Shown piece after piece: positions 3,734-30,900 of a stretch of 64,000 bases of DNA (position 1 is its first letter; every line of letters begins with the position of its first letter). Origin of the DNA: Harmothoe impar (lineage: Eukaryota > Annelida > Polychaeta > Phyllodocida > Polynoidae); the NCBI GenBank assembly GCA_947462335.1, contig OX381708.1, positions 2,542,001-2,606,000 on the forward strand. Reading direction: 5' to 3'. The notes below the pieces were generated by a model. That model was not told the DNA's origin. It worked only from the letters and a program-made list of their open reading frames with translations, and searched no databases. A program made the translations under genes and the position numbers.

Positions 3734-3926
3734 AGGGAGTGTTCATTTATTAATTACAGGGGGGGTGGTGAGATTTCGCGTGGACGCGTGAACATTTTTT
3801 TACGCCCCGCCCCCTTCCAGAGAGCGCGTGAAACGTTTCGCGCCCCCCCTCACCGAAGGCAGCGAAAATTTTTCGCCCACCCCCCTTTGAACTATAGTAA
3901 CAGGCAGGCTTTTTTGCTAAAAAGGG
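3734..3926. mobile_element. Left half of a MITE split by the Polinton
   Basis: It begins AGGGAGTGTTCATTTATTAA and carries the G/C-homopolymer body and the CAGGCTTTTTTGCT core of the 599-836 family. It stops exactly at the Polinton target duplication. Its other half is at 14426-14553. Confidence 0.8.
3921..3926. repeat. Target site duplication AAAGGG, left copy
   Basis: The six bases AAAGGG abut the first base of the left inverted repeat and recur immediately after the right one at 14426-14431. Six-base duplications are the hallmark of Polinton/Maverick integration. Confidence 0.9.
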
Positions 3927-4025
3927 AGTAGTATAGTATGTATCGGAACGGGACTATAGTTAAGTACTGTTTATTACTCAATCGATATGCAGCCAATCAG
4001 AGGCCTCCATTGGGTCACGTGACCC

Positions 4026-4039
4026 GTTGCCATGGTAAC
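4026..4039. promoter_or_regulatory. RFX X-box-like palindrome in left TIR
   Basis: GTTGCCATGGTAAC is a complete match to the palindromic X-box bound by RFX factors (known consensus GTNRCCNNRGYAAC). Function here is inferred from sequence only. Confidence 0.5.
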
Positions 4040-4137
4040 GTGACCTACTTAGGGCTCTCAGCCAATCAGAAGCCAGCATTCTGGGTGACCTACTGACCTA
4101 CTTAGAAGCTCTCAGCCAATGAGAGGCCGGCATTCTG

Positions 4138-4151
4138 GTAACCATGGTAAC
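4138..4151. promoter_or_regulatory. Second RFX X-box-like palindrome in left TIR
   Basis: GTAACCATGGTAAC again fits the X-box palindrome. A weaker relative, GTAACTAGGGTAAC, follows at 4211-4224. Each sits just before a GTGACCTACTTA block, so the spacing is regular. Confidence 0.5.
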
Positions 4152-4435
4152 GTGACCTACTTACGTCACGTGACCTACTTAGGCTCAGCCAATCAGAAGC
4201 CGGCATTCTGGTAACTAGGGTAACGTGACCTACTTAGGGTTCTGTTTGTAAACAACACCACGTGGCTCTCTTGTTTGTAAACAACACCACGTGACACGTG
4301 ACTGTTTGTAAACAAACAACGTATATATAGAAAAAAACACAACAAGTTCCATCTTATGTTAAAATTATATTTTCGAATAAAAAAGCACATCTGTAACAGC
4401 GTCTATGTGTAACTACGCGCGTTCTCATTCAAACA

Positions 4436-5068
4436 CTATAACACTATCATACCGTAGCAGCAGCAGGTAGGACTGGAAGAAAAGCAAGCGCACGAGCAGA
4501 AGCGACGACACCATTTGCACCATCCGGTCGTCGCGTTGGTAGCCCTACTACTCGTCGCGCGTTCAACTGGAGGTTTAAGAGTGACAAATGACGATTCTTT
4601 GTCGACGCGACTGCTAACATCAGCAGCATCAGCAGCATCGGCAGCATCGGCAGCAGCATCGGCAGCAGCGGCAGCAGCCTCGGCAGCAGCGGTAGCAGCA
4701 GTAGCAGCAGCTGTAGCAGCAGTAGCGTGAGCATTAGCAACAACAGCAGCAGCGACAGTAGCAAGGGCGGCAGAGCGGGCACTAGTAGCGTTATCAGCGG
4801 CGTCATCGGCAGCCGCAACAGCATCAGCAGCAGCAGCGTCGGCATCGGTGGCATGAGTAGCTGCATCGGCGGCAGCAACAGCAGCAGTCACAGCCGCAGC
4901 GGCAACAACAACAACGTCATCACGACCCGCGTCACTAACAGCCGCAGTAAATGCAGCAGTAGCACGCTGAGCAGCACTAGCAGCAGCAGTAGCAGAGGCT
5001 ACAGCATCAGCCTCACATCCGCGAGCAGCTTCGTCATTCCGCTTCATGTCACGGTAGCAACTTTCCAT
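4436..5068 (-). CDS. Unrecognised Ala/Asp-rich protein with Cys-rich tail (Polinton left arm)
   Basis: I do not recognise this protein. The start at 5068 is the first ATG after a minus-strand TATA box (5183-5189). It has G at -3 and G at +4, a strong context, and gives 210 residues. The frame also opens upstream, but only from a GTG too close to the TATA box. The middle (roughly residues 20-150) is almost entirely Ala with Asp, Val and Thr, encoded by imperfect GCN/CAG-type trinucleotides. The last 30 residues are Cys- and Trp-rich (CKWC, CSCAC, TCCCY). Because the trinucleotide tract is open in several frames, length alone is weak evidence. The promoter, start context and unique tail are what favour a real gene. 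A possible poly(A) signal on this strand lies inside the TIR (3970-3975). Confidence 0.45.
   Translation of the reverse strand: MESCYRDMKRNDEAARGCEADAVASATAAASAAQRATAAFTAAVSDAGRDDVVVVAAAAVTAAVAAADAATHATDADAAAADAVAAADDAADNATSARSAALATVAAAVVANAHATAATAAATAATAAAEAAAAAADAAADAADAADAADVSSRVDKESSFVTLKPPVERATSSRATNATTGWCKWCRRFCSCACFSSSPTCCCYGMIVL
4619..5003. repeat. Imperfect CAG/GCA trinucleotide tract
   Basis: Interrupted CAG, CGG and TAG triplets keep several frames open on both strands, giving Ala-, Leu- and Ser-rich shadows. A pure (TAG)n run follows at about 5106-5140. Replication slippage is the likely origin. Confidence 0.75.
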
Positions 5069-5098
5069 CACGAGGATCTGCAAATTGAGGCGCGCTGC

Positions 5099-5140
<42 letters not shown>

Positions 5141-5182
5141 CGTGAACGATGATGACAATGCTGAATGTGGTTTCACTCCCCC

Positions 5183-5189
5183 TTATATA
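5183..5189 (-). promoter_or_regulatory. TATA box for the leftward gene
   Basis: On the minus strand this reads TATATAAG, preceded by a GC-rich segment. Transcription starting 25-30 bp downstream would meet its first ATG at 5068. Confidence 0.55.
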
Positions 5190-5691
5190 CCCTTACGCCC
5201 CGCCTTTTTTCAAGCCACCGGCCAGCTGCCCCTTCACGGCAGGTCTTTAGATCAGCCTTAAGTCGCTTACTACGTGGCTCATCATCCCTCTAATCGCATT
5301 TTCCAGCCGCCGGCCGGCTGTCTGCTGACGACAGGCGAGGGTGATTTGTTTTTCTTTAGATATAAGCCGCTTACCACACGCGCACCCTCTAGTCACAGAC
5401 AGAGTGACAGAAAGGGAGGGGGTCGCTTTGTTCACGCTACCTGTAGTTGTTTTTCTATACACACGCTGAGCCCATGACCCGTTAATCCTTTATACAGGTA
5501 ACACGCGTTCAACTAATTACCCTATTGTATGACAGTCGGTACACGGATTTAATTTTAAACCGCCTTCCCATCTGGATCCATGTCTGGCGGGGTGGAAGGA
5601 TCCAGCTGAAAAGTGTGATTAGGGCTTTTGTTTCTCTTATGATAGCAGCAGGTCAGCATGCGACAGCTGAAAATGTCACACTCGCCGCTCC
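5190..5691. promoter_or_regulatory. Divergent control region between the two left-arm genes
   Basis: About 500 bp separate the leftward TATA box (5183-5189) from the rightward one (5692-5698). Two diverged copies of a roughly 100-bp block, marked by CCGGCC(A/G)GCTG and AAG(T/C)CGCTTAC, lie at about 5216-5276 and 5307-5378. Open frames here overlap on both strands and look like chance. Confidence 0.45.
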
Positions 5692-5698
5692 TATAAAA
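5692..5698 (+). promoter_or_regulatory. TATA box for the rightward left-arm gene
   Basis: TATAAAA is followed about 25 bp later by a pyrimidine-rich stretch (CTCTCTCTTTCC). No ATG occurs from about 5710 to 5933, where a 216-codon frame begins. Confidence 0.55.
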
Positions 5699-5932
5699 GA
5701 CTGAGATGCGTCTCTCTCTCTTTCCACACGCCCTTCTACTACCATCGCCGCCGACACCGCCACCGCCCATCGCCAGCCGACCGCCGCCACCGCCTGCAGA
5801 CACCGTCATCACGCCGGCAGGGAATTTCGAGCTGAGTCTGCTTATTGCTTATTTTTTTTTCTTTGAGCTTTTTGTTTTAAATTTTTTTTTAATTTTCACT
5901 CAGTCTTTTTTTTTGTTTCGGAGGAAAGAAAT

Positions 5933-6583
5933 ATGGCACTGCAGAGGGCGCGAGTTTCTAAAAGACGATCGCGCGAACAAAGGGCCCTCCTCAACTGCCC
6001 GGCTATTTTTTTATCTCAAAGGAGAGAGCGTCACGTAGTTGAGGTTCACGCATCTCTTGAAGCGTACCGAATTCTCGAGAAAAGCAAAGCTGAGCGCCAT
6101 CGTCGTTATACAAGAGCGGAAAAGGAAAACGTAGCGACATGGCCGAGAGCCGTCTTCTCAGAACCGTATTTACTCTACCGTTGCATAATATCCGCTCTCA
6201 GCGCCCCCACTCGTTGGGCGTTTCATGAACAGAAAGAGCGCCGCCACTCTCCTCACCCCGCCTCTTCTTATATAGTGAGAATAAGCGCTATGAAACGATT
6301 CCGCAAACCGATCGGATTCTTGGGAGTGACTGCAGCTCCCACTCGGTGGGCGCGCGTTGTGGCCGACGTGAACACGGTAACTAAAAGTTTCGACGTCGTC
6401 ACTTGTTATCCCGCTTATTGCAACGCAGCCGAATGGAAGAAGATAGGGACGCACTATTTCATACCATACGCACCGATATGTGTTTGTCACCGCCGCGCTC
6501 ACACACCTTATTGCTTTTTCGAGACGATCCTGTCACAACACAGAAATAGAAAAGAAAGCGGCAAAGCGACGAGCTTTGCCTAA
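5933..6583 (+). CDS. Unrecognised basic protein with two APTRWA motifs (Polinton left arm)
   Basis: I do not recognise this 216-residue protein. The start is the first ATG after the predicted transcription start of the TATAAAA box at 5692. It has A at -3 and G at +4, a strong Kozak context. The N-terminal 50 residues are very basic (RARVSKRRSREQR). The motif APTRWA occurs twice, near residues 91-96 and 136-141, each encoded by a small CCCACTCG(T/G)TGGG hairpin. The C-terminal part is rich in Tyr, Cys and His (CHRRAHTPYC), which might bind metal. It sits where other Polintons carry replication or accessory genes, but no polymerase, primase or helicase motif is visible. A short TATATAG followed by an in-frame ATG at 6290 could give a shorter product. 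An A19-class run follows the stop almost directly. Confidence 0.6.
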   Translation: MALQRARVSKRRSREQRALLNCPAIFLSQRRERHVVEVHASLEAYRILEKSKAERHRRYTRAEKENVATWPRAVFSEPYLLYRCIISALSAPTRWAFHEQKERRHSPHPASSYIVRISAMKRFRKPIGFLGVTAAPTRWARVVADVNTVTKSFDVVTCYPAYCNAAEWKKIGTHYFIPYAPICVCHRRAHTPYCFFETILSQHRNRKESGKATSFA

Positions 6584-6585
6584 AG

Positions 6586-6632
6586 AAAAAAAAAAAAAAA
6601 AAATTAATCTGCGCTTTTCTCCTCCTCCTCCT

Positions 6633-6663
<31 letters not shown>

Positions 6664-6672
6664 TCTCTCTTC
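6586..6672 (+). repeat. A-tract and pyrimidine microsatellite
   Basis: A run of about 19 A's lies just after the stop of the preceding frame, followed by (TCC)n and (CTTCCT) repeats. It may be slippage, or the trace of a retro-copied poly(A) tail. Confidence 0.7.
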
Positions 6673-6685
6673 TTTTTTTTTAAAA

Positions 6686-6726
6686 AATAAATATTTGTAT
6701 CAGACTCCTCTGGAGTCTGATACAAA
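6686..6726 (+). terminator. Poly(A) signal followed by a perfect 15-bp hairpin
   Basis: AATAAA at 6686-6691 is followed at 6694-6726 by a perfect inverted repeat with 15-bp arms (TTTGTATCAGACTCC) and a 3-base loop. It lies between the left-arm gene and the ATPase block, where a transcript end is needed. Some large DNA viruses process 3' ends at such hairpins; that comparison is inference. Confidence 0.5.
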
Positions 6727-6824
6727 ACATTTATGACTATTGAGTGAAAATAGAATTTTATCGCAAAAAATAAAAAGAAAAAAAAGACACTTCTGCCGCC
6801 GCTACTGTGACACCGGCCGGAATC

Positions 6825-6840
6825 AATAAAAAGGTCGGCG
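6825..6840 (+). promoter_or_regulatory. Candidate promoter of the ATPase block
   Basis: AATAAAAAGGTCGGCG resembles the region before the major capsid gene, which has AATAAAAAG and GGTCGGCG about 7 bases apart. The first ATG downstream is that of the ATPase at 6934. Confidence 0.45.
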
Positions 6841-6933
6841 GACTTTTCTCCACAACTATTCACCACCGACCGTTCGAGTGAGAAACACAGCAGACAGTCA
6901 CACACACAACCGCTCTCTGACGCGTCCTGAAAA

Positions 6934-7653
6934 ATGTCCAGTAGTAAAAGCAAACTCTTCACAGAAATTCATTTCGACGCTCGACTACAAGGACCCTTTA
7001 GTTGTATCATTAGCGGTCCGTCGGGTTGTGGAAAATCGCGCTTGGTGGATCAATTTCTGAGCGACGTGAACAATTTGGTCACGCCGCCGGTGGAAAAGAC
7101 TTTTTACCATTACGGCGAGTGGCAACCTCTGTTTGAAAAAATGGAAAATCGGTACGGTGTGGAATTCAGAGAAGGTCTTCCTAGCAAAGAGTCTATAGCG
7201 GGAGACGTGGAAGTAGCAGAAGACGCTTTACGACCCCACACTCTACTGATATTGGACGATCTGATGAGCAGTTCCAATCAGCAAGTGGTAGCCGACATCT
7301 TTACTAAATACTCGCATCACTGGAACGTGAGCGTCATATACATCACTCAGAACCTCTTCCAGAAATCACCCGACTTTCGAACTATGAGTCTGAACGCTCA
7401 CTACATGATCGTTTTCAAGAACCCGCGCGACATGGGGCAAATAGCTAGTCTGTCTCGCCAGGTGTTTCCGTCCAACGCGGCGGCTCTCTCTAGTATATTT
7501 ACCCATGAACTCAAGCGACCTCACTCATACCTCCTCCTGGACTTCAAGCAGTCAACACCTGACGATCTGAGAATACGCTCCTCTTTGACGGCCATACACT
7601 CTCAGCTAGTGTTCGTACCGCTAGACAAAAAAAAGAACAACAGAAAGCAGTAG
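6934..7653 (+). CDS. FtsK/HerA-type genome-packaging ATPase (A32-like)
   Basis: This 239-residue protein is expected to drive the element's DNA into preformed capsids. Walker A reads GPSGCGKS (residues 28-35). Walker B is LLILDD (104-109), with two acidic residues as usual in this family. A sensor-like TQN follows at 138-140. Length and motif spacing fit Polinton and adintovirus packaging ATPases. The start is the first ATG after the predicted promoter, with A at -3. It is the first gene of a plus-strand block: the next frame begins 10 bp after its stop. Confidence 0.92.
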   Translation: MSSSKSKLFTEIHFDARLQGPFSCIISGPSGCGKSRLVDQFLSDVNNLVTPPVEKTFYHYGEWQPLFEKMENRYGVEFREGLPSKESIAGDVEVAEDALRPHTLLILDDLMSSSNQQVVADIFTKYSHHWNVSVIYITQNLFQKSPDFRTMSLNAHYMIVFKNPRDMGQIASLSRQVFPSNAAALSSIFTHELKRPHSYLLLDFKQSTPDDLRIRSSLTAIHSQLVFVPLDKKKNNRKQ

Positions 7654-7663
7654 CAAAAGAAAA

Positions 7664-7996
7664 ATGTCTTCTCATCTACTCGAAAGACACTTTGGTACTC
7701 TCAAGCACTTAGCTAAGTGCTCGCCAAAGGACTGCTCGCATCTAATAGACTCTGGAAGCGACGAGCTGATCGCAGCGTTGAGTGAGATCTGTCACAATTT
7801 ACTGGTAGGGAACATCCCGCTCAGCGACAAACAACTGGACAAGCTTCGAGAATCGGCTGACGTGTTGAGGGAGGTCGGCAAAAAATCTACGCCCATCAAA
7901 AAAAAGAGACGCGTCTTGGTACAAGAGGGAGGTTTCCTCATTCCGGCTCTCATAGGGATGGCCTTACCGCTTATAAAGAGCATTCTCCGTATATGA
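7664..7996 (+). CDS. Small conserved Polinton protein with basic and hydrophobic C-terminus
   Basis: A 110-residue protein of a family repeatedly found beside Polinton capsid genes; its function is not established. Residues 34-72 form a helical segment (EICHNLL.GNIPL type). They are followed by a nuclear-signal-like KKKRR (79-83), then QEGG (87-90) and a hydrophobic stretch to the end. The GG-x could be a cleavage site for the element's protease, releasing a membrane-active peptide as in adenovirus-type maturation; this is inference, and P4 is Gln rather than the usual hydrophobic residue. Its stop overlaps the next frame's ATG as ATGA. Confidence 0.75.
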   Translation: MSSHLLERHFGTLKHLAKCSPKDCSHLIDSGSDELIAALSEICHNLLVGNIPLSDKQLDKLRESADVLREVGKKSTPIKKKRRVLVQEGGFLIPALIGMALPLIKSILRI

Positions 7997-9168
7997 GACA
8001 CGTCATTCGACACCTACTCGCCGACAGCACCACCACTACCGCCACCACCAGCGTCATTGCCACCGTCGTCCCCATGACGGACTCAGAGCAGCAACAACAC
8101 TACAAACGTTTAGCGCTCGTGGATCCTGAGACGCTCTACAAATCATCACGAGCAGGTCTACTTCATCATGTGCCCGCTGCTGCTGCTACTACTAGCGCTG
8201 CTACTACTGCAGTCGCTGCTGCTAGTACTTCTACTGCTCCAAACCTTCCTCCTCTTCCTGATGAGCGCACTGAAAAGAACGAGAGTTCTGCTCCTGCCAC
8301 CGCCGCCCGCCTACCCGCCGACATGGCCTATTACCACAAGCAGGCAGAGCAGTCCCTTCATCCCGACGCGGCCTTGCACCAGGTGCTACAGTTTATCTAC
8401 AGGGACTTGGATTTAGTGTTGAACGACCCCACTTTGGAATCGCGCGAGAAAATGTTGAAATACCGAAGGTTGTTGAATAGATTGCAATTTTTTCTCGCGA
8501 ATCCCCACAACAGCAACATCTCTTCGTCCTACTCTTCTTCGCCCCCGGCTCACCTCCGTCAGTCTGCTGAAGAGGCCAGCGCGTCCCTACTCGAGCGGTT
8601 GGCGAACCAAGTTCCCAAGAGGAATCGCCGCCGGACCGTGGAGCTGTACAAACAATTGGAGAAATCCGGAGTGATCAAGTGGAACGAGGACGGGGCGGTG
8701 CGCGAGATGTCGGGTCGGAGAATACCACCTGAGCATCGCATCAACATAGTGGACTTACTGAACGACGCCGCCAGGTTCAGGAAGACGGCGCCCAGACCGG
8801 CGGGCTACTCGCCGTTCACGAAAGCGCTGCGCGAAGCGGTTCCCACCACAGACGCTTTGATCGGAAACCATCTGTATAAAGCGAGCGGACCTGGCCAAAG
8901 TTTGGACACACGGCTTGCTGACAGAGGTCGGAAACGACCGAGCTTCGAATCGGAAGAAGGAGAAGCAGCAGCAGCAGTAGCAGCAGCAGACTCTTCTCTG
9001 CAGGTGGTGGACGATCAATCCTCTGACGACGAGGAGGACGACCGTGAACTTTTCCAAACTCCGACTTCCTATAGGAGCGTGCCACGTAAGAAAAGGAAAG
9101 GGCGCAACCGCCTAGCGGCGAGCTCGTCTTTCACGCCCTCAACAGACCCGCGATGGGCAAACCAGTGA
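7993..9168 (+). CDS. Conserved Polinton protein of unknown function, 391 aa
   Basis: This belongs to a conserved but uncharacterised family usually encoded near Polinton integrase and capsid genes. Visible blocks are HYKRLALVDPE (residues 36-46), a helical segment with REKMLKYRRLLNRL (151-164), VELYKQLEKSG (216-226), and INIVDLLNDA (250-259) followed by ALIGN (288-292). The N-terminal 100 residues are Thr/Ala low complexity. The C-terminus has an acidic SSDDEEDD patch and a basic RKKRKGR stretch that could be a nuclear signal or bind DNA. The first ATG overlaps the previous stop (ATGA). A later ATG at 8074, just before the conserved block, is an equally likely start. The end overlaps the integrase start by 16 bp. 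A structural or core role is likely but unproven. Confidence 0.75.
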   Translation: MRHVIRHLLADSTTTTATTSVIATVVPMTDSEQQQHYKRLALVDPETLYKSSRAGLLHHVPAAAATTSAATTAVAAASTSTAPNLPPLPDERTEKNESSAPATAARLPADMAYYHKQAEQSLHPDAALHQVLQFIYRDLDLVLNDPTLESREKMLKYRRLLNRLQFFLANPHNSNISSSYSSSPPAHLRQSAEEASASLLERLANQVPKRNRRRTVELYKQLEKSGVIKWNEDGAVREMSGRRIPPEHRINIVDLLNDAARFRKTAPRPAGYSPFTKALREAVPTTDALIGNHLYKASGPGQSLDTRLADRGRKRPSFESEEGEAAAAVAAADSSLQVVDDQSSDDEEDDRELFQTPTSYRSVPRKKRKGRNRLAASSSFTPSTDPRWANQ

Positions 9169-10289
9169 AGAGACTGACCAAGAAGGAAAAAGAAAAGAAG
9201 CGCGTAGTAGCTAGATATACCGACGTCAAAGCGCCCTCCAGTTTCACTAGCGTGACTAAACTCCAGAAACAGCATTTTCGCCACCTGAACCCGGCCGTCA
9301 TCCGAGATGCTTTAGTGTCGCTGGACGCCTACACTAAACATAAACCCATTCGGAGAAAATTCGCAAGGAACAAGACTATAACCGGCGCAATCGATCAGCA
9401 GTGGCAGATAGATCTTATGGACATGCAAGCTTTGGCGTCTCACAACGACCGCTTCCGGTACGTGGTGACGGCGATCGACGTTTTCTCTAGGTACGCGTGG
9501 GCCGTTCCCATTAAATCCAAGAGCGGCGCTGATGTCACCGAGGCCTTCCGAGAGATGACAGGCCCTGGCGAGAGACGACCGCGCACTGTTCAGACAGACA
9601 AGGGGAAAGAGTTTTTGAACAAGATCTTTCAAGATCACTTGAAGAGCGAGGGCATAGAGTTCTTCACTGGCAAGAACGACGACATCAAAGCTAGTCTAGT
9701 GGAGCGCTTGAACCGCAGTCTGAAGGAGAAGCTGTGGCGTTATTTCACACACAAGCGCACGTATCGCTACGTAGACGTACTGCACCATGTAGTGTCTTCT
9801 TACAATCGCACTCACCACAAGACGTTGAAAATGGCGCCGGCTCAAGTCAGCTCGGAAAACAGCGAAACGGTTTTCTACCGACAAGATCTCCCAACTAACA
9901 AACAAATCGACGAAATATGGAAAAAGAAGAAAAAAACAAAGACGTCCGCCGTCGACGTCATCGCTCCGGGTGACAGAGTGAGGATGTTGAGAACCAAAGG
10001 CGCCTTCGACAAAGGGTACGAGGGAAACTGGCGCGAGGAAGTGGTCGACGTTGCTAAGACGTTGGGAAGCAGAGGGTTCGAGCTGAAAGACGACAAGAGC
10101 GAGGAGATAAAAGGCGTCTTCTACCCGGAAGAGGTTCAGAAGGTGTACAAGAGTCGTTACGACAAGAACTACCTGATAGACGAGGTGTTGCGCCGCAAGA
10201 CCGTCGACGGTAAAGAGTTAGCTTTCGTACGTTGGTTAGGTTACGACGACAAGTTCAACGAGTGGATCCCCGTCAAAAAAATAACGTAA
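9153..10289 (+). CDS. Retroviral-type integrase with C-terminal chromodomain
   Basis: A DDE-family integrase that inserts the element and creates 6-bp target duplications. In this 378-residue protein the rve core shows IDLMD with Asp87, TDKGKEF with Asp149, and VERLNRSLK with Glu184, so the catalytic triad is complete and the last spacing is close to 35. The N-terminal part lacks a clear HHCC zinc motif and is strongly basic. The last 40 residues (339-378) form a chromodomain with the aromatic residues of the RWLGYD and NEW motifs. Such chromodomains read histone marks and can guide insertion in other elements. The start at 9153 overlaps the upstream gene, and the next gene follows after 4 bp. 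Confidence 0.95.
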   Translation: MGKPVKRLTKKEKEKKRVVARYTDVKAPSSFTSVTKLQKQHFRHLNPAVIRDALVSLDAYTKHKPIRRKFARNKTITGAIDQQWQIDLMDMQALASHNDRFRYVVTAIDVFSRYAWAVPIKSKSGADVTEAFREMTGPGERRPRTVQTDKGKEFLNKIFQDHLKSEGIEFFTGKNDDIKASLVERLNRSLKEKLWRYFTHKRTYRYVDVLHHVVSSYNRTHHKTLKMAPAQVSSENSETVFYRQDLPTNKQIDEIWKKKKKTKTSAVDVIAPGDRVRMLRTKGAFDKGYEGNWREEVVDVAKTLGSRGFELKDDKSEEIKGVFYPEEVQKVYKSRYDKNYLIDEVLRRKTVDGKELAFVRWLGYDDKFNEWIPVKKIT

Positions 10290-10293
10290 CAAA

Positions 10294-11412
10294 ATGAACA
10301 TCACTCTACCTAGCAACAGCTCTATGGAGTATTATCCTGACAACAGCTTGACGTCTTTCCGAACTCACTTCGACTCGCCGCTCCTTCTGCCCGAAGCGTA
10401 CGAAGCGGCTCTGACTGAGATCATCCTCCCTACAGAATGGACTAACGTGCACGACGACGACTTGATCATCGTTGTTCCTCTGCGCACCAAGGGTTCGCTA
10501 GAGGAGGCGATCCAGGTTTTAAAAGACACTAAATTCGCCGAAGGAAAAAAACCACAGGTGGCCTGGCGGGAAATGAGAAACGCGAACGGTCTGAGCAAGC
10601 TAACGTTCAGCTCAGACTTCCCGCTGAGCTGGAAGGAAGCGAGCTATGTAACGGTGGAAGAGATATCAGACACGGCGGAAGAGCAGCAATTGAAACCGGA
10701 AACAAAAAGGTTCAAGAGAGAGGTCGACTTGAGACAGACGAATGCCGTATACAAGAAGTTCTTGTCCCCGGCGGTGAAGAAGAAGGCGATCAGCGATCAA
10801 GCAAGACATATGATCGAAGAGATGGAGAAACACATGGGCGTGCGCAGTTTCATGCCAAACATATTCCAGATACCTCCTATTTTCACCGGAAGCAACCACA
10901 CCCTAGTCGAGCGCTTGAGTGAGACGATGCGAGATGACAGACTAGAGGGCGAGAGCTTCTTGCTCAAACCGATGCGGATCTTATCGTACGACGCCAAGAC
11001 GAAACGCGTCACCATCAAACCGCCGAGACACTGCGCTGTCCTGCTGATTCCGCATCTCGCATGCGTTCTAGGCTTCGGAGAGAAGACGCGTTTCGCGTCG
11101 CCGACTACCGGCGCCTACTCGATGGATGTTTACGGAGACGTGCACTCTGTGTACATATACACCGACATGATCCAAGAGAGACGTGTGGGCGACATGCAAG
11201 TGCCGCTGTTGCGCTGCGTGGCGGTGGACAGAGGCGGAAAGCGTCGAGGTGGCGTGCAAGCTATCAGTTTTCCCCATTTGGATTATTTCCCCTTGAAATC
11301 CAAGAGGTTCACCGAGGTCGGCATCTATTTAAGAGACCGATCCGGTCATTCCATCCCATTCGGTAGAGGCGAGGTGACCGTGACACTTCATCTGAGACCT
11401 ATTGAGCGCTGA
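10294..11412 (+). CDS. Penton-like minor capsid protein
   Basis: The 372-residue protein matches the conserved Polinton minor capsid family, predicted to fill the capsid vertices as adenovirus penton base does. Family hallmarks are the N-terminal LPSNSSM.YYP.NSLTSF block (residues 5-22), the LGF segment in the C-terminal half, SVYIYTDMI followed by VGDMQVPLLR, and the terminal FGRGEVTVTLHLRP strand. These strands fit a jelly-roll fold. A charged segment in the middle (about 125-185) is variable in such proteins. Only 4 bp separate it from the integrase and 11 bp from the next gene, so it probably shares a transcript with both. Confidence 0.85.
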   Translation: MNITLPSNSSMEYYPDNSLTSFRTHFDSPLLLPEAYEAALTEIILPTEWTNVHDDDLIIVVPLRTKGSLEEAIQVLKDTKFAEGKKPQVAWREMRNANGLSKLTFSSDFPLSWKEASYVTVEEISDTAEEQQLKPETKRFKREVDLRQTNAVYKKFLSPAVKKKAISDQARHMIEEMEKHMGVRSFMPNIFQIPPIFTGSNHTLVERLSETMRDDRLEGESFLLKPMRILSYDAKTKRVTIKPPRHCAVLLIPHLACVLGFGEKTRFASPTTGAYSMDVYGDVHSVYIYTDMIQERRVGDMQVPLLRCVAVDRGGKRRGGVQAISFPHLDYFPLKSKRFTEVGIYLRDRSGHSIPFGRGEVTVTLHLRPIER

Positions 11413-11423
11413 AAGAGAGAAAA

Positions 11424-11855
11424 ATGATGCGTCAACGCGTTCCGTACTTTCCACCCAGGCGCACCGACTTCGGCAGAGGGTACAGCGATTACTACAACGC
11501 GCAGCTGGGCAACGGCGTGACCGTGTACAGCGGGCGCTCTTTCCAGAGCGGGCACGGTTTGGGCGGCGCTCTGTTAGGTCTGATGCGCTCGGCTACCCCG
11601 CTGTTGAAGTCGGTGGGAAAAACGCTGCTCCGCGCCGGTGTGGGCGTAGCTAAAGATGTGCTGGCGGGTCGGACTTTAAAGAGCAGCGTGAAAGACCGAG
11701 GCGCAGGCGCTCTGAAGAGACTGGCGAGTACGGCGTTCTCGGGAGGAAAGACGACTGTCGCGTCTAAGAAAGGGTCGAAACGTCGTCGTGGGCATTCCCC
11801 TCAGACGGGTGGTGGCTCTTGCAAGAGACGTAGAGGGGATGTATTCGACCGGTAA
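11424..11855 (+). CDS. pVI/pX-like small basic virion protein
   Basis: A 143-residue protein of the glycine-rich, amphipathic and basic type found next to Polinton capsid genes and compared with adenovirus pVI/pX. Residues 43-50 read GHGLGGAL, a candidate protease processing region. Residues 50-80 form an amphipathic helix (LLGLMRSATPLLKSVGK). KDVLAGR.LKSSVKDRG follows at 77-93. The C-terminal 30 residues are clusters of Lys and Arg (KRRRG, CKRRRG), suited to packaging DNA. The ATG-ATG start at 11424 has a good A-rich leader. The stop is followed by the capsid gene promoter. Confidence 0.75.
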   Translation: MMRQRVPYFPPRRTDFGRGYSDYYNAQLGNGVTVYSGRSFQSGHGLGGALLGLMRSATPLLKSVGKTLLRAGVGVAKDVLAGRTLKSSVKDRGAGALKRLASTAFSGGKTTVASKKGSKRRRGHSPQTGGGSCKRRRGDVFDR

Positions 11856-11872
11856 GCGCCTAGGCGTTCAGG

Positions 11873-11908
11873 TATAAATAAAAAGACTGGAGGCGGTCGG
11901 CGTCAGTC
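11873..11908 (+). promoter_or_regulatory. Capsid gene promoter overlapping a poly(A) signal
   Basis: TATAAATAAAAAG contains a TATA box (11873-11880) and AATAAA (11877-11882) in the same bases. A GGCGGTCGGCGTC block follows. The first ATG downstream is the major capsid start at 11935. The upstream block could end here while the capsid transcript begins. Confidence 0.55.
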
Positions 11909-11934
11909 TGTCGGCCGCGTGAAGAGAGAACACA

Positions 11935-13242
11935 ATGGCTTACGTACACGAGAGCAGTAACGAGTGCGCGCTCTCTGAGCTCGACCTGCACACCGTAGCG
12001 CCGACTCAGACTACTATCTTAAAGTCGTCTTTCCTGGGGATAGAAACAAAAAACTCTTTAGAGGATGGAGGTAACATAAATTTCACCATCAACAAGTCGC
12101 AAGAGTACACAGACCTCAACGAGAATTACCTTCATCTGGAATGTCAAGTGCTGAAAGCGAACGGAACGGCGATCGATGACACCGACGCAGTCGCTCCGGT
12201 GAACAACTTGGCTCACTCGCTCTTCAAAGACGTGCAAGTCTCCATCGGCGGTTTCAAAGTGTCTGGCAACACCGAGACCTACCCTTACCGAGCTTACTTG
12301 GAAGGGTTACTCAACTACAACAAAGACGTGAAGGACGGCGTCATGAGCGCCCAGGGGTGGCATGAAGATACGCCCGGTCAGTTTGACACGTTGACTGACG
12401 CGAATGCGGGGTACAAAGCGCGCAAGAAGCTAATCTCCAACAAGCGCTTTTCGCTGATGGCGCGACTGCACTTTGACCTGGCTCATCAACCGAAGCTCAT
12501 CGTTGGAGAGACGGAAATCAATCTCACTCTGAAACAGGCGGCGCCCTCTTTCTATCTGATGTGCGCCGCTGACGGAGGCTACAGCTTGAAGATCTACAAA
12601 GCAAAGCTCTACGTGCGACGCGTGTTGGTGGCGGACGCTGTAGCGGAAACGCACGAGAGAGCGGTGATAGAACACGGACCCTTCGACTACCCGGTGAACA
12701 GAGTGGAAGTGACGACGTACGCCATCCCTCAAGGTAACAGAGATCACAGCTACACGCACTCCAACACAGGCCAGCTTCCCAAGTCGATGATGATTTGCTT
12801 CCTGGACCACGACGCCTTCAACGGTAGCTTCACCAAGAACCCGTTCGAGATGAAGCATTACGACATCAGCTCGCTTCAAGTGATAGTGAACGATCAGAAA
12901 GTGCCGAACGACGCGTATGTGCCCGACTTTAAGACCAAAGCGGCTGTGAGAGAGTACTTGGCGCTACACACGGAAACGGGGATGTACGAAGGCGCGCGCT
13001 CCTGCGGTATTTCATACGATCAATTCCTGAACGGTTACACGGTGTTCCCCCTCGACTTAACCCCAGACAGATCGCACGACGGGTGTCGCGTGAACCTTAT
13101 AAGAGCGGGTCAGCTGAGGGTGGAAGTCAGTTTCCGCTCGGCGCTACTAGCGACAACAACCGTGCTACTCTACTTGGTGTACGACAACGTCGTCGAGCTG
13201 ACCCGAGATCGACACCCCATCACCGACTACCACATGAACTGA
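11935..13242 (+). CDS. Double-jelly-roll major capsid protein
   Basis: The shell protein of the predicted icosahedral virion, 435 residues, of the family long annotated in animal genomes as F54H12.2-like. Recognisable blocks are LDLHT near the N-terminus, NNLAHSLFKDV..SIGG (residues 89-106), the central ARLHFDL segment, FLDHDAFNGSFTKNPF.M.H (about 288-306), and a C-terminal FPLDLTPD followed by LVYDNVVE..R. Length and block order match complete Polinton capsid proteins, and the frame has no break. It has its own promoter (11873), so it may be transcribed separately and more strongly than the upstream block. The protease follows after 29 bp. Confidence 0.93.
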   Translation: MAYVHESSNECALSELDLHTVAPTQTTILKSSFLGIETKNSLEDGGNINFTINKSQEYTDLNENYLHLECQVLKANGTAIDDTDAVAPVNNLAHSLFKDVQVSIGGFKVSGNTETYPYRAYLEGLLNYNKDVKDGVMSAQGWHEDTPGQFDTLTDANAGYKARKKLISNKRFSLMARLHFDLAHQPKLIVGETEINLTLKQAAPSFYLMCAADGGYSLKIYKAKLYVRRVLVADAVAETHERAVIEHGPFDYPVNRVEVTTYAIPQGNRDHSYTHSNTGQLPKSMMICFLDHDAFNGSFTKNPFEMKHYDISSLQVIVNDQKVPNDAYVPDFKTKAAVREYLALHTETGMYEGARSCGISYDQFLNGYTVFPLDLTPDRSHDGCRVNLIRAGQLRVEVSFRSALLATTTVLLYLVYDNVVELTRDRHPITDYHMN

Positions 13243-13271
13243 AGACAAGACCGCGGTACTTGGCGTATCGT

Positions 13272-13724
13272 ATGAACACGCTTGAAATAAGCAGAGTGTT
13301 GAAGGAAAACGTTCACACAAAACATCGTTTCCTGGGCGTTTTCTCTTGTGACACTATTCCGAAGCACCCTATCAAAGACACTTGTTTCGTGAGCAACACA
13401 GATCCGCAACATTTACCAGGTCAGCATTGGGTGGCGTTTTACGTGTCGAGCACGGGTGAAGTGTACTACTTTGATTCTTTCGGCTTACCGCCGCTGAGTG
13501 CGGAGTTCTTGTCCTTCGTGGAACGCTCTGCTCCGTTCAAGTGGCAAAGAAACCGCATTCAACTACAAGACACTTCTGCTGACACCTGTGGACCTCATTG
13601 TGTTCATTTCCTAATTGAAGCATGTCGAACAAGAAACCCCAAGAAGTGCGTCATGCGCATGAGCAGAATCCCAAAGCTGAGCGACCGGGTCGTGAGTCAG
13701 AAGCTATCGATGATGCTGTTGTGA
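13272..13724 (+). CDS. Adenain-like cysteine protease (C5/Ulp1 fold)
   Basis: A maturation protease expected to process virion precursors. The ATG at 13272 gives 150 residues; upstream codons in frame overlap the capsid gene and lack a good start. The catalytic His is His52 in GQHWVAFY. The acidic residue is Asp68 in FDSFG. A Gln follows in the IQLQD segment (97-99). The nucleophile is Cys106 in DTCGPHC, the typical CG-x-x-C box. All core residues of the fold are present. The C-terminal third overlaps a second frame (13622-13921). Confidence 0.92.
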   Translation: MNTLEISRVLKENVHTKHRFLGVFSCDTIPKHPIKDTCFVSNTDPQHLPGQHWVAFYVSSTGEVYYFDSFGLPPLSAEFLSFVERSAPFKWQRNRIQLQDTSADTCGPHCVHFLIEACRTRNPKKCVMRMSRIPKLSDRVVSQKLSMMLL

Positions 13725-13921
13725 CGGGTTGTTGCGATGGCGGCCGTTTCATGGAAGCAAAGATTCTCTGCCTTGCCGAAATGGTGTTGGATTTATCCAA
13801 AGTCGTGCAATGTCTATTGGAGAGAACTCGTCCGGGGTGTGGTGGTGCGAGTGACGGCGGCGTGAGACTTTGCGGCCTGTTGAGTTGCTGCAAATCGAAG
13901 AAGCAAGCTAAAAAAGCATAA
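13622..13921 (+). CDS. Unrecognised small Cys-rich protein, last gene of the element
   Basis: I do not recognise this 99-residue frame. It starts inside the protease gene in another frame (103-bp overlap) and ends 30 bp before two AATAAA signals. An internal ATG at 13751 would give a non-overlapping 57-residue version that keeps the more protein-like part: a helical ILCLAEMVLDLSKVVQCLLE segment, a glycine patch, and a CGLLSCCKSKKQAKK tail. The Cys pair beside lysines could suggest lipid modification or metal binding, but nothing proves it. No other gene could occupy this interval, so a short real gene is plausible. Confidence 0.4.
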   Translation: MSNKKPQEVRHAHEQNPKAERPGRESEAIDDAVVTGCCDGGRFMEAKILCLAEMVLDLSKVVQCLLERTRPGCGGASDGGVRLCGLLSCCKSKKQAKKA

Positions 13922-13950
13922 ACTTGTGTGTTTTTTCTGATTGAAATGAA

Positions 13951-13963
13951 AATAAAGAATAAA
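13951..13963 (+). terminator. Tandem poly(A) signals ending the rightward genes
   Basis: AATAAA occurs at 13951-13956 and 13958-13963, just downstream of the last right-arm frame and before the right TIR. Confidence 0.6.
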
Positions 13964-14200
13964 ATGAAAAGAAAAGAAATTATCTTGTTGTGTTTTTATT
14001 TCTATAATACAAGCTACATAACTTTTTTTTCGTTTGTTTGTTTACAAACAGTCACGTGTCACGTGGTGTTGTTTACAAACAAGAGAGCCACGTGGTGTTG
14101 TTTACAAACAAACCCTAAGTAGGTCACGTTACCCTAGTTACCAGAATGCCGGCTTCTGATTGGCTGAGCCGAAGTAGGTCACGTGACGTAAGTAGGTCAC

Positions 14201-14214
14201 GTTACCATGGTTAC
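14201..14214. promoter_or_regulatory. RFX X-box-like palindrome in right TIR
   Basis: GTTACCATGGTTAC is the mirror copy of the site at 4138-4151. Confidence 0.5.
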
Positions 14215-14312
14215 CAGAATGCCGGCCTCTGATTGGCTGAGAGCTTCTAAGTAGGTCAGTAGGTCACCCAGAATGCTGGCTTCTGATTGGCTGAGAGCCC
14301 TAAGTAGGTCAC

Positions 14313-14326
14313 GTTACCATGGCAAC
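14313..14326. promoter_or_regulatory. Second RFX X-box-like palindrome in right TIR
   Basis: GTTACCATGGCAAC is the mirror copy of the site at 4026-4039. Confidence 0.5.
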
Positions 14327-14425
14327 GGGTCACGTGACCAAATGGAGGCCTCTGATTGGCTGCATATCGATTGAGTAATAAACAGTACTTAACTTTAGTC
14401 CCGTTCCGATACATACTATACTACT

Positions 14426-14431
14426 AAAGGG
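14426..14431. repeat. Target site duplication AAAGGG, right copy
   Basis: Identical to 3921-3926 and directly abutting the last base of the right inverted repeat. Confidence 0.9.
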
Positions 14432-14553
14432 GCTAAACTTTTTACGCCCCCCCCGTCAAGATGGGTCAGAATTTTTACACCCCCCCCTTCAGGAGGGTCC
14501 GAATTTTTTGCGCCCACCACACCCCCCTGTAAATAATAAATGAACACTCCCTA
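14426..14553. mobile_element. Right half of the MITE split by the Polinton
   Basis: Ends with the complement of AGGGAGTGTTCATTTATTA and carries the matching C-run body. Together with 3734-3926 it restores one MITE of about 315 bp. Confidence 0.8.
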
Positions 14554-26265: not shown

Positions 26266-27900
26266 TCAAAGGTAGATGGAGCTACGGTATATGGTGCGGG
26301 TGTCTTCTGTGGGGGTGGTCACCTGCTGGACAATGCCCCCGGTGGAGCGGGAGTGCACCACGCCTGTCCTGGTGGGGGAGCCCACAGGCAGCCCGTCCAC
26401 CACCTGGCCGTCAGAGGCCGAGTGAGACATGCCCACGGGGGGCGGGGAGCGGGAGGGGCTCATGCGGATCTCAAGGCTGCCCTCTGGTGGGGGTGGAGGG
26501 GGCGGCGGCAGAGGCAGGTCCGGGTAGCCGTTGAGCTGATGCTCGCTACTCCCGTTGACGTGCACTGTGCGGGTGGGCGACTGCTGCGGGAAGTGCCATG
26601 TCGGGGACTGCGCAGCGCCTGGGTTCTGGGTGGGAGAATGTACATCAGGGTTGTGGGCTGTAGACTGCCACGTCGGGGACATGGCCACAGGGAAGACCAC
26701 GCCATGCCGCGATGGGGACGTTGTCTGTCTGGGTGAAATGTGCCCGGGCGACCCATGACCTGGTGACCTATGACCTGGTGACATCTGACCTGGTGACCTA
26801 TGACCCGGTGACATCTGACCGGGTGACCTGTGACCTGGTGACCTGTGACCTGGTGAGGTGGCCTGCCTTGTGGGTGAGACACGTACTGGGGATATTGCCT
26901 GCTGGGGGGAGGTGGGCGACTGTGAATGCCGCGTAGGTGAGTGCACGGTGGGGAAGAAGGGTCCGTTAGCCTGCACTACAGTCGACTCCTGCATCCTGAC
27001 CTCCCTATGGACCTCCCTTGACTCCTGCCTGATGTAAGACACACTAGATGCACTGTGCACCTCTGAGGACTGTTTGGTTTGTTGGCCTTGGTAGCCGTTG
27101 ACGGTAATGACGGTGACAGACTGGCCGGCAGCAGGGGCCTCCATGGCCTCCAGTGTGCGGTCCAGGTCCTGCTCGTACACCTGAGAGCCCCCGTTCACAT
27201 TGTCATACTCTGAGGTTTGTGGGGAAGTCCGTTGTGCGGGGGTGTTGGTGGTGGGTGAGAGGGCGGGCTGTGTGGGTGAGAGGAGGGGTTTAGAGGGTGA
27301 GACGGGTGGCAGGGTGGGTGAGAGGGAGGTGCGTGAAGGTGAGCGTGCACGTTGGTCTGAGTGCTGCACCTCCAGCTGTACGCCCCCACCACCACCACCA
27401 GCAGCAGCAGCAGCCACACCGGGACTGGTCGCCTCAGGCTCAGGGGACGGCTCGTTCAGCGTCCCCCGACTCCGGCTCAGGATCCGGCCTCCTGCTCCCG
27501 TCACTACATTAGCTACCTCCTCCAAGAAGGACGTCTTAGAACTACGGTAGTCCGCGGTGGACGCACGTGAGCTCTGTCCGTCCGTCGTGGCTGACAGTGT
27601 CATGGCATCATAGTCCCCTTCAGCCGACGACGACCGAGCCCTCGTCTCTTCCTCCTCCTCTGCCACCCCGTCTAGCGGGATGAGCGCCTTGCCGCCGTCG
27701 GCAGGAATCTCGGGTCGCATCTCCTTGATGCTGCGCCGCTTGCCGCTCACGATCTCCTTCTCTGTCTCTAGTGTGCGGCGCCCTATCAGCTGCTCCACGC
27801 TCGGCGGCACAAACAGGCCGAAGGGAATGGTAGGCAGCTCGTCTATCTCGCCCTTAGGAGGAATGTCCATCTTAGCTTTCCGTAGCTCTTCAAGACACAC
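26266..27900 (-). CDS. RabGAP terminal exon: disordered Ser/Pro-rich tail
   Basis: Codes residues 322-865. The acceptor TCTAATTGCAG lies at 27901. The first 35 residues (to PFGLFVPP) end the family's conserved region. The rest is low complexity: a 15-bp coding minisatellite giving (GHRSP)n/(GQMSP)n, many SPT and SP sites for proline-directed kinases, and a [10 protein letters not shown] run that could bind SH3 domains. It ends YRSSIYL. Tails of this gene family vary greatly, so little function can be inferred. Confidence 0.9.
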   Translation of the reverse strand: MCLEELRKAKMDIPPKGEIDELPTIPFGLFVPPSVEQLIGRRTLETEKEIVSGKRRSIKEMRPEIPADGGKALIPLDGVAEEEEETRARSSSAEGDYDAMTLSATTDGQSSRASTADYRSSKTSFLEEVANVVTGAGGRILSRSRGTLNEPSPEPEATSPGVAAAAAGGGGGGVQLEVQHSDQRARSPSRTSLSPTLPPVSPSKPLLSPTQPALSPTTNTPAQRTSPQTSEYDNVNGGSQVYEQDLDRTLEAMEAPAAGQSVTVITVNGYQGQQTKQSSEVHSASSVSYIRQESREVHREVRMQESTVVQANGPFFPTVHSPTRHSQSPTSPQQAISPVRVSPTRQATSPGHRSPGHRSPGQMSPGHRSPGQMSPGHRSPGHGSPGHISPRQTTSPSRHGVVFPVAMSPTWQSTAHNPDVHSPTQNPGAAQSPTWHFPQQSPTRTVHVNGSSEHQLNGYPDLPLPPPPPPPPEGSLEIRMSPSRSPPPVGMSHSASDGQVVDGLPVGSPTRTGVVHSRSTGGIVQQVTTPTEDTRTIYRSSIYL

Positions 27901-30900
27901 CTGCAATTAGACACCCCTTTTGAAACACAGCTGACACAGACAAAATATATTTCTTTTAAAACACAGCCGGGAAAGAAAGTTTTTCTTTCATGATCTGAAT
28001 TAACTCTACAGGAAACATTTAATTTTACTGTTAATAGTTTGTGCAACTTCAGATATATGAAGGATCTCTGTGTTCATTATAACTACTGGGACTTGTTTGA
28101 CACTGATCCATCCAACCACATCTAACATACTCTAGGCACACTAGGGCCCAGGGAATAAAGTTACGTACCTGTAACGACTCCATACATTGGTCGTCTGTGT
28201 ACCCAAAGTCTTGTACGAGGTACGTCTGGAAGAAACTAAGGAGCTCCTCCATGTTTAGTTTCAGAACTCGCTCTGTGAGAAAAAGAAACACAATGTGGTT
28301 AATGCTGCATTGGGGACAGGGGGCTGTTGGTCTGAATGTTGTATTGGGATAACATATTAACACTACAGGCAGGTAATATGTTACTTAAAGAAAACCACAG
28401 GTAGGGAAATCAGATGATGACTGAATTTGTCAAAAACTTCTATTAAATTAAAATTTGACAACCACCAATTCTGAGCAGGATCATAGCTTTGTGTGAATGT
28501 AGCAGGTGAGAATTCTCTGTCCTCGGCTATCATAGTATCCTAGACTTACTTTTGTGCATCTTGAGGAGGTTGTAGGCCATGCCGATGAGCAGTCGCTCCC
28601 CCTCCAGGATGTAGACGTCCCAGAGCCGCAGGGTGAGGGTGAAGGGCACCCGGTCCAGGAAGCACTGCAGGAACCACTTAATGGTGTAGATGCTCGACAG
28701 GATCTCATTCCTCTCCTGCAGCAGGCAATGGAGGCAATCAGAGCTCATGTGCAGCAACAAAGTTACTATGTTTAATGCTAAACTCTGCAGAAACTGGATC
28801 TCCTTCTCTGTGGATGCATTCTCCACCAGCCTGTTTATTAGAAGTTATTAAAAGAGCTCATGTGCAGCAACAAAGTTACTATATTTAATGCTAAACTCTG
28901 CAGAAACTGCCAAAGCTTCAGGAGTGTCTCATGCCAAACCTTCAGGAGTGTCTCAACTCTGTAGTGTTGGCATGATACTTGAATGCAGTACTGGTGAGTT
29001 ACTCACCAGAGCTGCATGGATACATCATGACGACCATGGCCATGATGCATTAATGCATTATGCCACCCCTAAAGGGTTAAGTGCTGAGGAAACTACAGAA
29101 ACTGGATCTTGTTCTCCAAGGGCCCCTTTTGAAAACTTTCCCAAAACTCATCAACAATAACATGAAATAGTTGCATACTTAATGATAAGCCATTTGGATA
29201 GAAGCTGGGATACTTTCCTTAAATCTTTTAATGATGTCTCAAGATTCATTTGACACAGGACATCAGGATGCAGTGCTACAGCTGCATTCATGCATCATGA
29301 TTCCAAAATGGTACTTTAAAGCACTATGCTGCACTTACAGGGTTTAAGTACAGAGTACCAGCAGACCTACTCACCAAGTGTTTCCTGATTTTGGGCAGGA
29401 ACTTTTTGAGCACCTTGTCGTGATGGTCCTGAAACCGGAGTAACTTGGGGAAGCCGGGGATGAAGAAACCTAAGTACAGAACAAGGTACATCTTTATGTC
29501 TCACATGTAGAAATGTACTTCATGCTACCTGAAGTCAGTGATAATACTTATATATTTTGAAGATATTGTGCTGATGTTGCATCCATTGTATGGTTTAAAT
29601 TGAAGTCTACGTTGTAACAGTGAATCAGAATAACATAACTCTTCCAGAAACCGCAATGTGGCCTTGGTGAGTAATTCACTGGTGTTGCATTGGTGCATCA
29701 AGCTGACCCATTGTGTCTCAACTCTCTAGGGTTGGCATGATGCTTGAATGCAGCACTGGTGGGTTAATTGCCAGGGCTGCATTCATGCATCATAATGACC
29801 AAAGCTATGAAGCATTAAGGCATGATGCCATCCTTAAAGGGTTAATCCACACTCATTACATATTTGACGTCTTTAACATTGATGCTAGCACAGCTGGATG
29901 TGTGTAAGATGTGTGTCCATGTCTAGTTGTACTCACCGTGCATACAATGAGGGTCGTTACTGAGCAGCGCCGACAACGCCCAGAACGCATCCTGAAACAA
30001 CCACACACAATATCTATATGGTACTGACAATATTACATTCCCTTTAACATCTAAAGATGAAGAGAGATTCATCTCCTCCTGCACAGTTATTATAAATGAA
30101 TACTTTACAATTTTAGCTACTGGATTTTGCATGTGAAAAAAGTGTACTTTGCTGTGGCATGGCTTTCCTCGCAATCAAGGGGCATTAAAAGTGTTGTTTC
30201 GCTGTGGGTTTTGAGTAAAAAGTCTTGGTTCATGAGGCTAGTGAAATCATTAAGAACTGATTTATTTCTATTAAAATGATTATAGACTGTGAGTGTACAT
30301 ACCTCTTCCCCCAGAAACATGAGTAGTAAAGCAGCGATCTGACTCATGCCCTGACAGTAGCCGACCTCTGTGTTGTACATGGAGTAGGCTGCCAGCACGT
30401 GGAACAACGCCTGCTGTCTGTGAATAATGACAGGGGTAGGGTGAGTTATAGCGGTTAAGCCTTTAAGGGTGGCACCCTGCATTCATGCATCATGTCCTTG
30501 GCCAGCATGATGCATGAATGCAACCCTGGTAAGTAACTTTCCAGTGCTGCATTCAAGCATCATGCCGATCCTTTGGGCTCGAGAAACTCCCAAAGGGTCG
30601 GTATGATGCACCAATGCAGCACCGGCGAGTTACTTCTCAGGGCTATATTTGGGCATCATGAAGACAACTGTTATCTTTTAGCGACATGCCATCTTTAAAG
30701 GGTTAAATCAAAGAGAATATATATCTTACTGGGCTACAGTATCATGCTTATTACAATGTTAGAGTGCACTTAGGATAGCTTCATTGGTTCTGAATATTCA
30801 CTGAAGGGGGAGCCACTGCTCCACAGCACCCACTAAGGCAGCTAGTTTAGTTTGGTATTTAGTACAGCCACCACATCCCAGGTGGCACCACTAGTCCCCC

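Follow-up and report, generated by a model that had tools for sequence, protein, structure and literature searches.

A capsid-coding Polinton family that lacks a recognisable DNA polymerase in the genome of the polychaete Harmothoe impar

Polintons were first described as self-synthesising elements that carry their own DNA polymerase. How, then, would a Polinton be copied that holds integrase and capsid genes and has no polymerase gene? The question is raised by a 64,000-nucleotide stretch of the Harmothoe impar genome (assembly GCA_947462335.1, contig OX381708.1, positions 2,542,001 to 2,606,000 of the forward strand; hereafter the window), in which a Polinton-like element spans positions 3927-14425 (10,499 bp). 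The observation that this element is a capsid-coding, polymerase-free Polinton is confirmed. The explanation favoured here, with a probability of roughly 0.6, is that it represents a stable, multi-copy lineage of polymerase-free, Polinton-like satellites that are copied in trans by a polymerase-bearing relative.

The boundaries of the element are as the original prediction, made from the letters of the window, had placed them. The target-site duplication AAAGGG is present on both flanks (3921-3926 and 14426-14431) and is perfect over its 6 bp. The terminal inverted repeats (TIRs) measure 393 bp on the left (3927-4319, + strand, with the tip AGTAGTATAGTATG) and 392 bp on the right (14034-14425, - strand), and their claimed near identity holds, with 4 mismatches and 1 gap in 393 aligned columns. 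Outside these ends, a 31-bp inverted match joins positions 3734-3764 and 14522-14552, which suggests that the insertion went into another small inverted-repeat element.

From left to right, the element carries an Ala-rich frame on the minus strand, a gene for a 216-aa protein, and genes for a packaging ATPase, a PM/pX-like protein, a PZ-position protein, an integrase, a minor capsid protein, a PW/pVI-like protein, the major capsid protein (MCP) and a protease. The names PM, PZ and PW follow the gene order given in PMC8097293, and the names pX and pVI are presumptive. Pfam matches above the cut-off identify the 239-aa ATPase (6934-7653, +; Adeno_IVa2, 4.7e-5), the 378-aa integrase (9153-10289, +; rve, 2.9e-13) and the 150-aa adenain-like cysteine protease (13272-13724, +; Peptidase_C5, 4.9e-5). 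Residues D87, D149 and E184 of the integrase are invariant columns in a 20-row alignment, and its C-terminal region is chromodomain-like, with a Pfam chromodomain match (0.0013) below the cut-off. The 435-aa MCP (11935-13242, +) returned no match in a Pfam scan and no sequence relatives in the PDB. Its AlphaFold2 model (pLDDT 84) is of the double jelly-roll fold, as predicted structures go, and is matched by Foldseek to the double jelly-roll MCPs of PBCV-1, mavirus and Sputnik (E 1e-14 to 1e-15, TM-scores of about 0.5-0.6), as well as to that of an iridovirus.

The remaining structural genes were assigned largely by comparison with a Polinton resident in the same genome that carries polymerase B (PolB), in which tblastn finds relatives of the ATPase, PM/pX, integrase, pVI, MCP and protease and, weakly, of the minor capsid protein. 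The 110-aa PM/pX-like protein (7664-7996, +) and the 143-aa PW/pVI-like protein (11424-11855, +) match the stretch L029 of a resident Polinton at E 3e-10 and 6e-14, respectively. The 391-aa PZ-position protein (7993-9168, +) has no tblastn match in L029 and is named from gene order only. For the 372-aa minor capsid (penton-like) protein (10294-11412, +), the Pfam scan gave no match, and the assignment follows from gene position and from the weak similarity that tblastn finds between residues 285-371 and the homologue in the resident Polinton (E 1.3e-7). Of the set of uninterrupted genes originally claimed, the integrase, ATPase and protease are thus upheld by Pfam, the MCP by predicted structure and the pVI/pX-like proteins by tblastn, with the minor capsid protein on weaker ground. 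A further 99-aa frame (13622-13921, +) overlaps the end of the protease gene; three copies cover it fully, and its status as a gene is uncertain.

No recognisable polymerase accompanies these genes. All 18 stop-to-stop frames of at least 60 aa overlapping positions 4320-6933 were compared with Pfam at E values up to 10, and none of the 18 matched a polymerase or primase family. The only helicase matches among these frames, to RNA_helicase and Viral_helicase1, came from the packaging ATPase, fell below the cut-off and are due to the shared P-loop. The best remaining match, to PRIMA1 (6.4e-4), is also below the cut-off and lies within a repeat-rich frame. In addition, two pieces of resident PolB gave chance-level matches only when compared with the window by tblastn (best E 0.57). 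The statement that the left arm holds no PolB frame or remnant therefore stands, with 18 of 18 frames and the tblastn search negative, and the idea that a replication enzyme of the polymerase, primase or helicase type lies concealed in this arm was rejected on the same results.

Such an arrangement could reflect a private deletion in one copy, and the 1.51-Gb assembly was searched with the TIR as query. From 1,075 first-look candidates, 40 hits were scored, all at 99% or above; they include the left TIR of the window element itself. Once paired, these hits correspond to the window element and 33 others, and six pairs bracket elements of 10,348-10,736 bp. Twenty of the 33 were read, for most of them with one end only within the stretch, and all 20 are colinear with the window element at 96.0-99.7% identity per aligned piece. 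Three contain internal gaps or an insertion (L014, L021 and L025), with L021 lacking part of the left arm. Thus, the expectation of other polymerase-free copies with the same left arm is borne out by a multi-copy family. A private loss of the polymerase is ruled out, as all 20 copies are polymerase-free in layout and the same is true of L032, an older subfamily copy at 89-93% DNA identity to the window element. Neither a PolB in the interval nor a lone copy with a private deletion, the two findings that the original prediction had named as contrary to it, was encountered.

The MCP points to a larger family. A genome search with a relative of this protein (P0019) returned 96 matches, comprising 4 beside PolB places, 8 of the kind of a second element described below (L033) and 84 that by score are of the window-family kind, a count that is a lower bound and from which the window's own MCP is absent. 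No stop lies inside the match in 79 of the 84, one of which (L032) was read. The MCP genes of copies differ by 0-1.3%, so spread has been recent and repeated; some pairs are 0.0-0.2% apart, which indicates that the copying machinery was active recently. Relatives also occur in public data: 33 proteins for the MCP, six of them at 73-95% in public assemblies, with Holothuria leucospilota (34%) and Patella caerulea (32%) as the named ones, and 308 proteins for the integrase at E up to 1e-10. Among the 120 integrase matches listed of these 308 is a cluster at 99% identity whose longest contig measures 10,510 bases, a possible lead to linear molecules of about the size of the element, although repeats collapsed in assembly could produce a contig this long as well.

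A family of this kind might be an ordinary deletion derivative, that is, a hitch-hiking non-autonomous transposon whose capsid genes are relics. Internal deletions do happen, as in L021 and as in L032, from which the integrase is missing along with the greater part of the minor capsid gene and in which the PZ frame is shortened, and the integrase and PZ frames are each broken in 5 of 20 copies of the window family. Against this, the frames of the structural genes are open in most copies, and comparison across subfamilies shows purifying selection on them. Among fully covered copies, frames are open in 19/20 for the ATPase, 17/19 for PM, 15/20 for both PZ and the integrase, 19/20 for the minor capsid protein, 18/19 for pVI, 18/20 for the MCP and 18/19 for the protease; the ATPase, PM, MCP and protease frames are also open in L032. 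The ratio of non-synonymous to synonymous change (dN/dS) among copies is approximate, with all values counted against the window copy and hence not independent, and amounts to 0.11 for the protease, 0.20 for the MCP and for PZ, 0.30 for pVI, 0.37 for the ATPase, 0.41 for the integrase and 0.44 for PM; the values for two out-of-frame controls, which overlap, were 2.7 and 9.2. Comparison with L032 gave 0.11 for the ATPase, 0.17 for PM, 0.18 for the protease, 0.24 for the MCP, 0.40 for PZ, 0.43 for pVI and 0.49 for the 99-aa frame, and wrong-frame MCP controls gave 1.3 and 1.7. These substitution patterns show purifying selection on the MCP, protease and ATPase genes. The selection tests make it unlikely that the capsid genes are relics, and the deletion-derivative explanation as a whole is regarded as very improbable.

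Left-arm genes might themselves supply a replication function. The original prediction placed two TATA-driven genes in this arm, of which one is reasonably well supported. This gene (5933-6583, +; TATA-like box near 5691) encodes a 216-aa protein with three full-length homologues at 75-88%. Of the 18 copies that cover it fully, 16 have an open frame; part of the gene is missing in two further copies, and dN/dS is about 0.50 among copies and 0.43 against L032. The other is weak: a 210-aa, Ala-rich frame on the minus strand (4436-5068) with an upstream TATA-like box and no Pfam match, which is open in all 19 fully covered copies and has dN/dS values of about 1.1 among copies and 0.62 against L032. 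Lying beside the ATPase gene, the 216-aa gene could specify a substitute for PolB, namely a replication initiator or terminal protein that has escaped recognition and that, alone or with host polymerases, renders the element autonomous. This is considered unlikely. The protein is far below polymerase size, has no match in Pfam and PHROGs scans and yields an uninformative structure model (pLDDT 32), and its frame is broken by a 1-base gap in L032. Its dN/dS is weak support as well, since three left-arm frames taken as spurious range from 0.44 to 0.60. Moreover, a processive polymerase would still be required from elsewhere.

Copying in trans by a PolB-bearing relative would meet that requirement. 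The integrase and the 6-bp duplications account for the insertion of copies. Retrovirus-type integrases insert linear DNA and are not known to excise it, so new copies of the element need DNA replication. No recognised enzyme of the element replicates DNA, and PolB acting in trans at the AGT ends is thus the simplest account; the many near-identical copies without a recognisable copying gene probably imply dependence on a related virus. The element would contribute its own integrase, capsid, packaging ATPase and maturation protease. Protein-primed PolB, from a polymerase-bearing Polinton or related virus, would copy the linear DNA from the (AGT)2 ends of the TIRs, and the copied DNA would then be packaged, re-integrated with 6-bp duplications, or both. 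The capsid genes would be retained for packaging and spread of the element.

The ends of the elements fit copying of this kind. AGTAGTATAGTATGTATCGG starts the window element and all 20 copies, AGTAGTATATATTG starts L032 and AGTAGTATGGGG starts the distant element L033, such that AGTAGT opens all three elements with both ends read (the window element, L032 and L033). The 6-bp target-site duplications of L032 and L033 are GACATG and AGTACT, and that of L021 matches at 5 of 6 bases. The tip AGTAGT is the (AGT)2//(ACT)2 motif published for Mavericks, which according to PMC8097293 is the commonest end motif of vertebrate Mavericks, elements that carry PolB. The ends are therefore compatible with copying by a protein-primed polymerase.

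Candidate helpers are plentiful in the genome. A search with PF03175 gave 129 matches at 68 PolB places, a lower bound; 59 places have a frame of at least 1,100 aa, 6 have a stop inside the match, and 54 have such a frame and no stop. One PolB Polinton (C3:73500001-73533000, 33 kb, read in four pieces) encodes PolB, integrase, ATPase, PM, pVI, MCP, protease and a minor-capsid-like protein, and is 34% identical to the window element in integrase and 26% in MCP. Its right arm includes a high-copy repeat of 340 bases (L030:9442-9779) that is also found at many unrelated genomic places. When right-arm DNA was used as a search query, four of nine long-match copies (itself included) reached the end of the queried stretch, which places the end of this element further out. 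Two other pairs of PolB loci were compared, and no element end was revealed. A pair of PolB loci shows 96% similarity as far as an ATG, probably the start of the PolB frame, and abruptly loses it from there on (L034:1929 and L035:3397).

A helper that shares the TIRs of the window family was expected from the original prediction, and was not found. No PolB place (of 68) is situated less than 30 kb from any of the 40 scored TIR hits, so that full-length PolB-bearing relatives with these TIRs are absent from this sample; nor does the same comparison (40 of 1,075 candidates scored) support a two-part genome in which the TIRs recur on a partner that carries just the polymerase. Of the 84 window-family MCPs, the one closest to a PolB place is still 40 kb from it, again beyond the 30-kb limit, and the four MCPs near PolB places are members of PolB elements. 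The helper may instead not be resident, being a lost polymerase-bearing parent or an outside infecting virus, with the resident PolB genes as bystanders. This possibility overlaps with the satellite explanation, and is a serious one that nonetheless falls well short of even odds: the spacing of TIR hits and PolB places and the low similarity of the PolB Polinton read (MCP and integrase) speak for it, and the presence of copies that are 0.0-0.2% apart in MCP together with many open resident PolB genes speaks against it.

Several further points weigh against the satellite explanation. The window TIRs gave chance-level blastn matches only (best E 0.39, longest 25 columns) to eight stretches, four of them from the PolB Polinton and the rest from four other PolB loci, and no PolB element with matching TIRs was found among the TIR hits, PolB places and stretches compared. 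The tips of PolB elements were sought by inverted repeats, pairwise copy comparison and DNA search, and none was located. Since 20 of 33 copies were read and 40 of 1,075 TIR candidates scored, a polymerase-bearing copy with the same TIRs could have been missed. The shared motif AGTAGT is just 6 bases and is general among Mavericks. The minor capsid gene has a dN/dS of 0.93 among copies and of 0.76 against L032 (49 codons), without clear purifying selection; the value of 1.1 for the Ala-rich frame is higher still, and the left-arm frames taken as spurious (0.44, 0.57 and 0.60) make values near 0.5 weak proof by themselves. It is also conceivable that the 216-aa protein has a role in replication that went unrecognised. 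No relatives were found in IMG/VR by MCP or by integrase, and virion formation and packaging parasitism are putative. The prediction of a virion-forming satellite that uses PolB in trans is accordingly supported in part: the lack of PolB, the multiple copies, the AGTAGT ends and the 68 PolB places favour it, and a helper with matching ends was not found.

Compared with known systems, the window element shares with Polintons/Mavericks (Polintoviricetes, including adintoviruses) the rve integrase, ATPase, double jelly-roll MCP, minor capsid protein, adenain-like protease, TIRs, 6-bp target-site duplication and (AGT)2 ends (PMC8097293). It differs in lacking a protein-primed PolB (about 1,000 aa or more) and in its length of 10.5 kb, against 12.7-24.6 kb for intact vertebrate Mavericks (PMC8097293). 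Many endogenous virus elements of protists have no detectable DNA polymerase, and are integrated and capsid-coding like the window element, but reside in protists (PMC10120064). Meldviruses combine adenovirus-class virion genes with the absence of recognisable PolB and integrase, and thus resemble the window element in having a virion module without PolB, whereas the latter retains an rve integrase; the meldvirus of the Figure 7 legend carries a primase-helicase (PMC11071296). Virophages (Maveriviricetes) are also small capsid-coding DNA viruses that depend on another virus, and it is to the MCPs of two of them, mavirus and Sputnik, that the window MCP is matched by Foldseek. The virophages, which are hyperparasites of giant viruses, differ in having pPolB or else a PolA-helicase fusion (PMC11071308). 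Most Polinton-like viruses lack pPolB and the rve integrase and encode other replication proteins (PMC11071308), unlike the window element, which has the integrase and in which no other replication protein was recognised in the 18-frame scan. Capsid-lacking Polintons are in print as well (PMC4028283), and the window lineage is their reverse, in keeping with its original description as the opposite of a capsid-losing, polymerase-keeping relic.

Polymerase-less relatives have therefore been published already, and what sets the window family apart is the set of integrase plus capsid genes, the canonical ends, the purifying selection and the many young copies in one genome. No report of an animal Polinton with integrase and capsid genes and without a polymerase was found in the literature searched, and one may exist in print. 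That selection maintains capsid genes in an element with no means of copying itself is best understood if particles or products acting in trans are important; if the satellite explanation is true, virion formation and co-infection by Polintons become a testable question.

The second element, L033 (C12:7106501-7116500, with the element at L033:98-7973, about 7.9 kb), is distinct from the window family. Its TIRs are about 890 bp long at 98%, its MCP and ATPase are 24% and 35% identical to those of the window, and its minor-capsid match is weak; the ATPase has a C2H2 match below the cut-off. No recognisable polymerase is present, the longest frame being 582 aa, and relatives of the window integrase or protease, sought at E up to 0.01, were not found. 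Eight MCP places are of this kind, none with a stop inside the match, and one of them (L033) was read. The genome may thus hold graded Polinton satellites, one family with integrase and capsid and another with capsid and ATPase, both copyable by PolB Polintons through their (AGT)2 ends and akin to virophages in parasitising Polintons, a suggestion offered tentatively and as slightly short of an even chance.

Elsewhere in the window, a 546-aa stop-to-stop frame at 26266-27906 (-) gave no match in a Pfam scan. AGTAGT was not seen at the ends of the structure at 33888-38905, an inverted-repeat arrangement that covers about 5 kb and includes several arms, which are 130-400 bases long and match at 90-97%.

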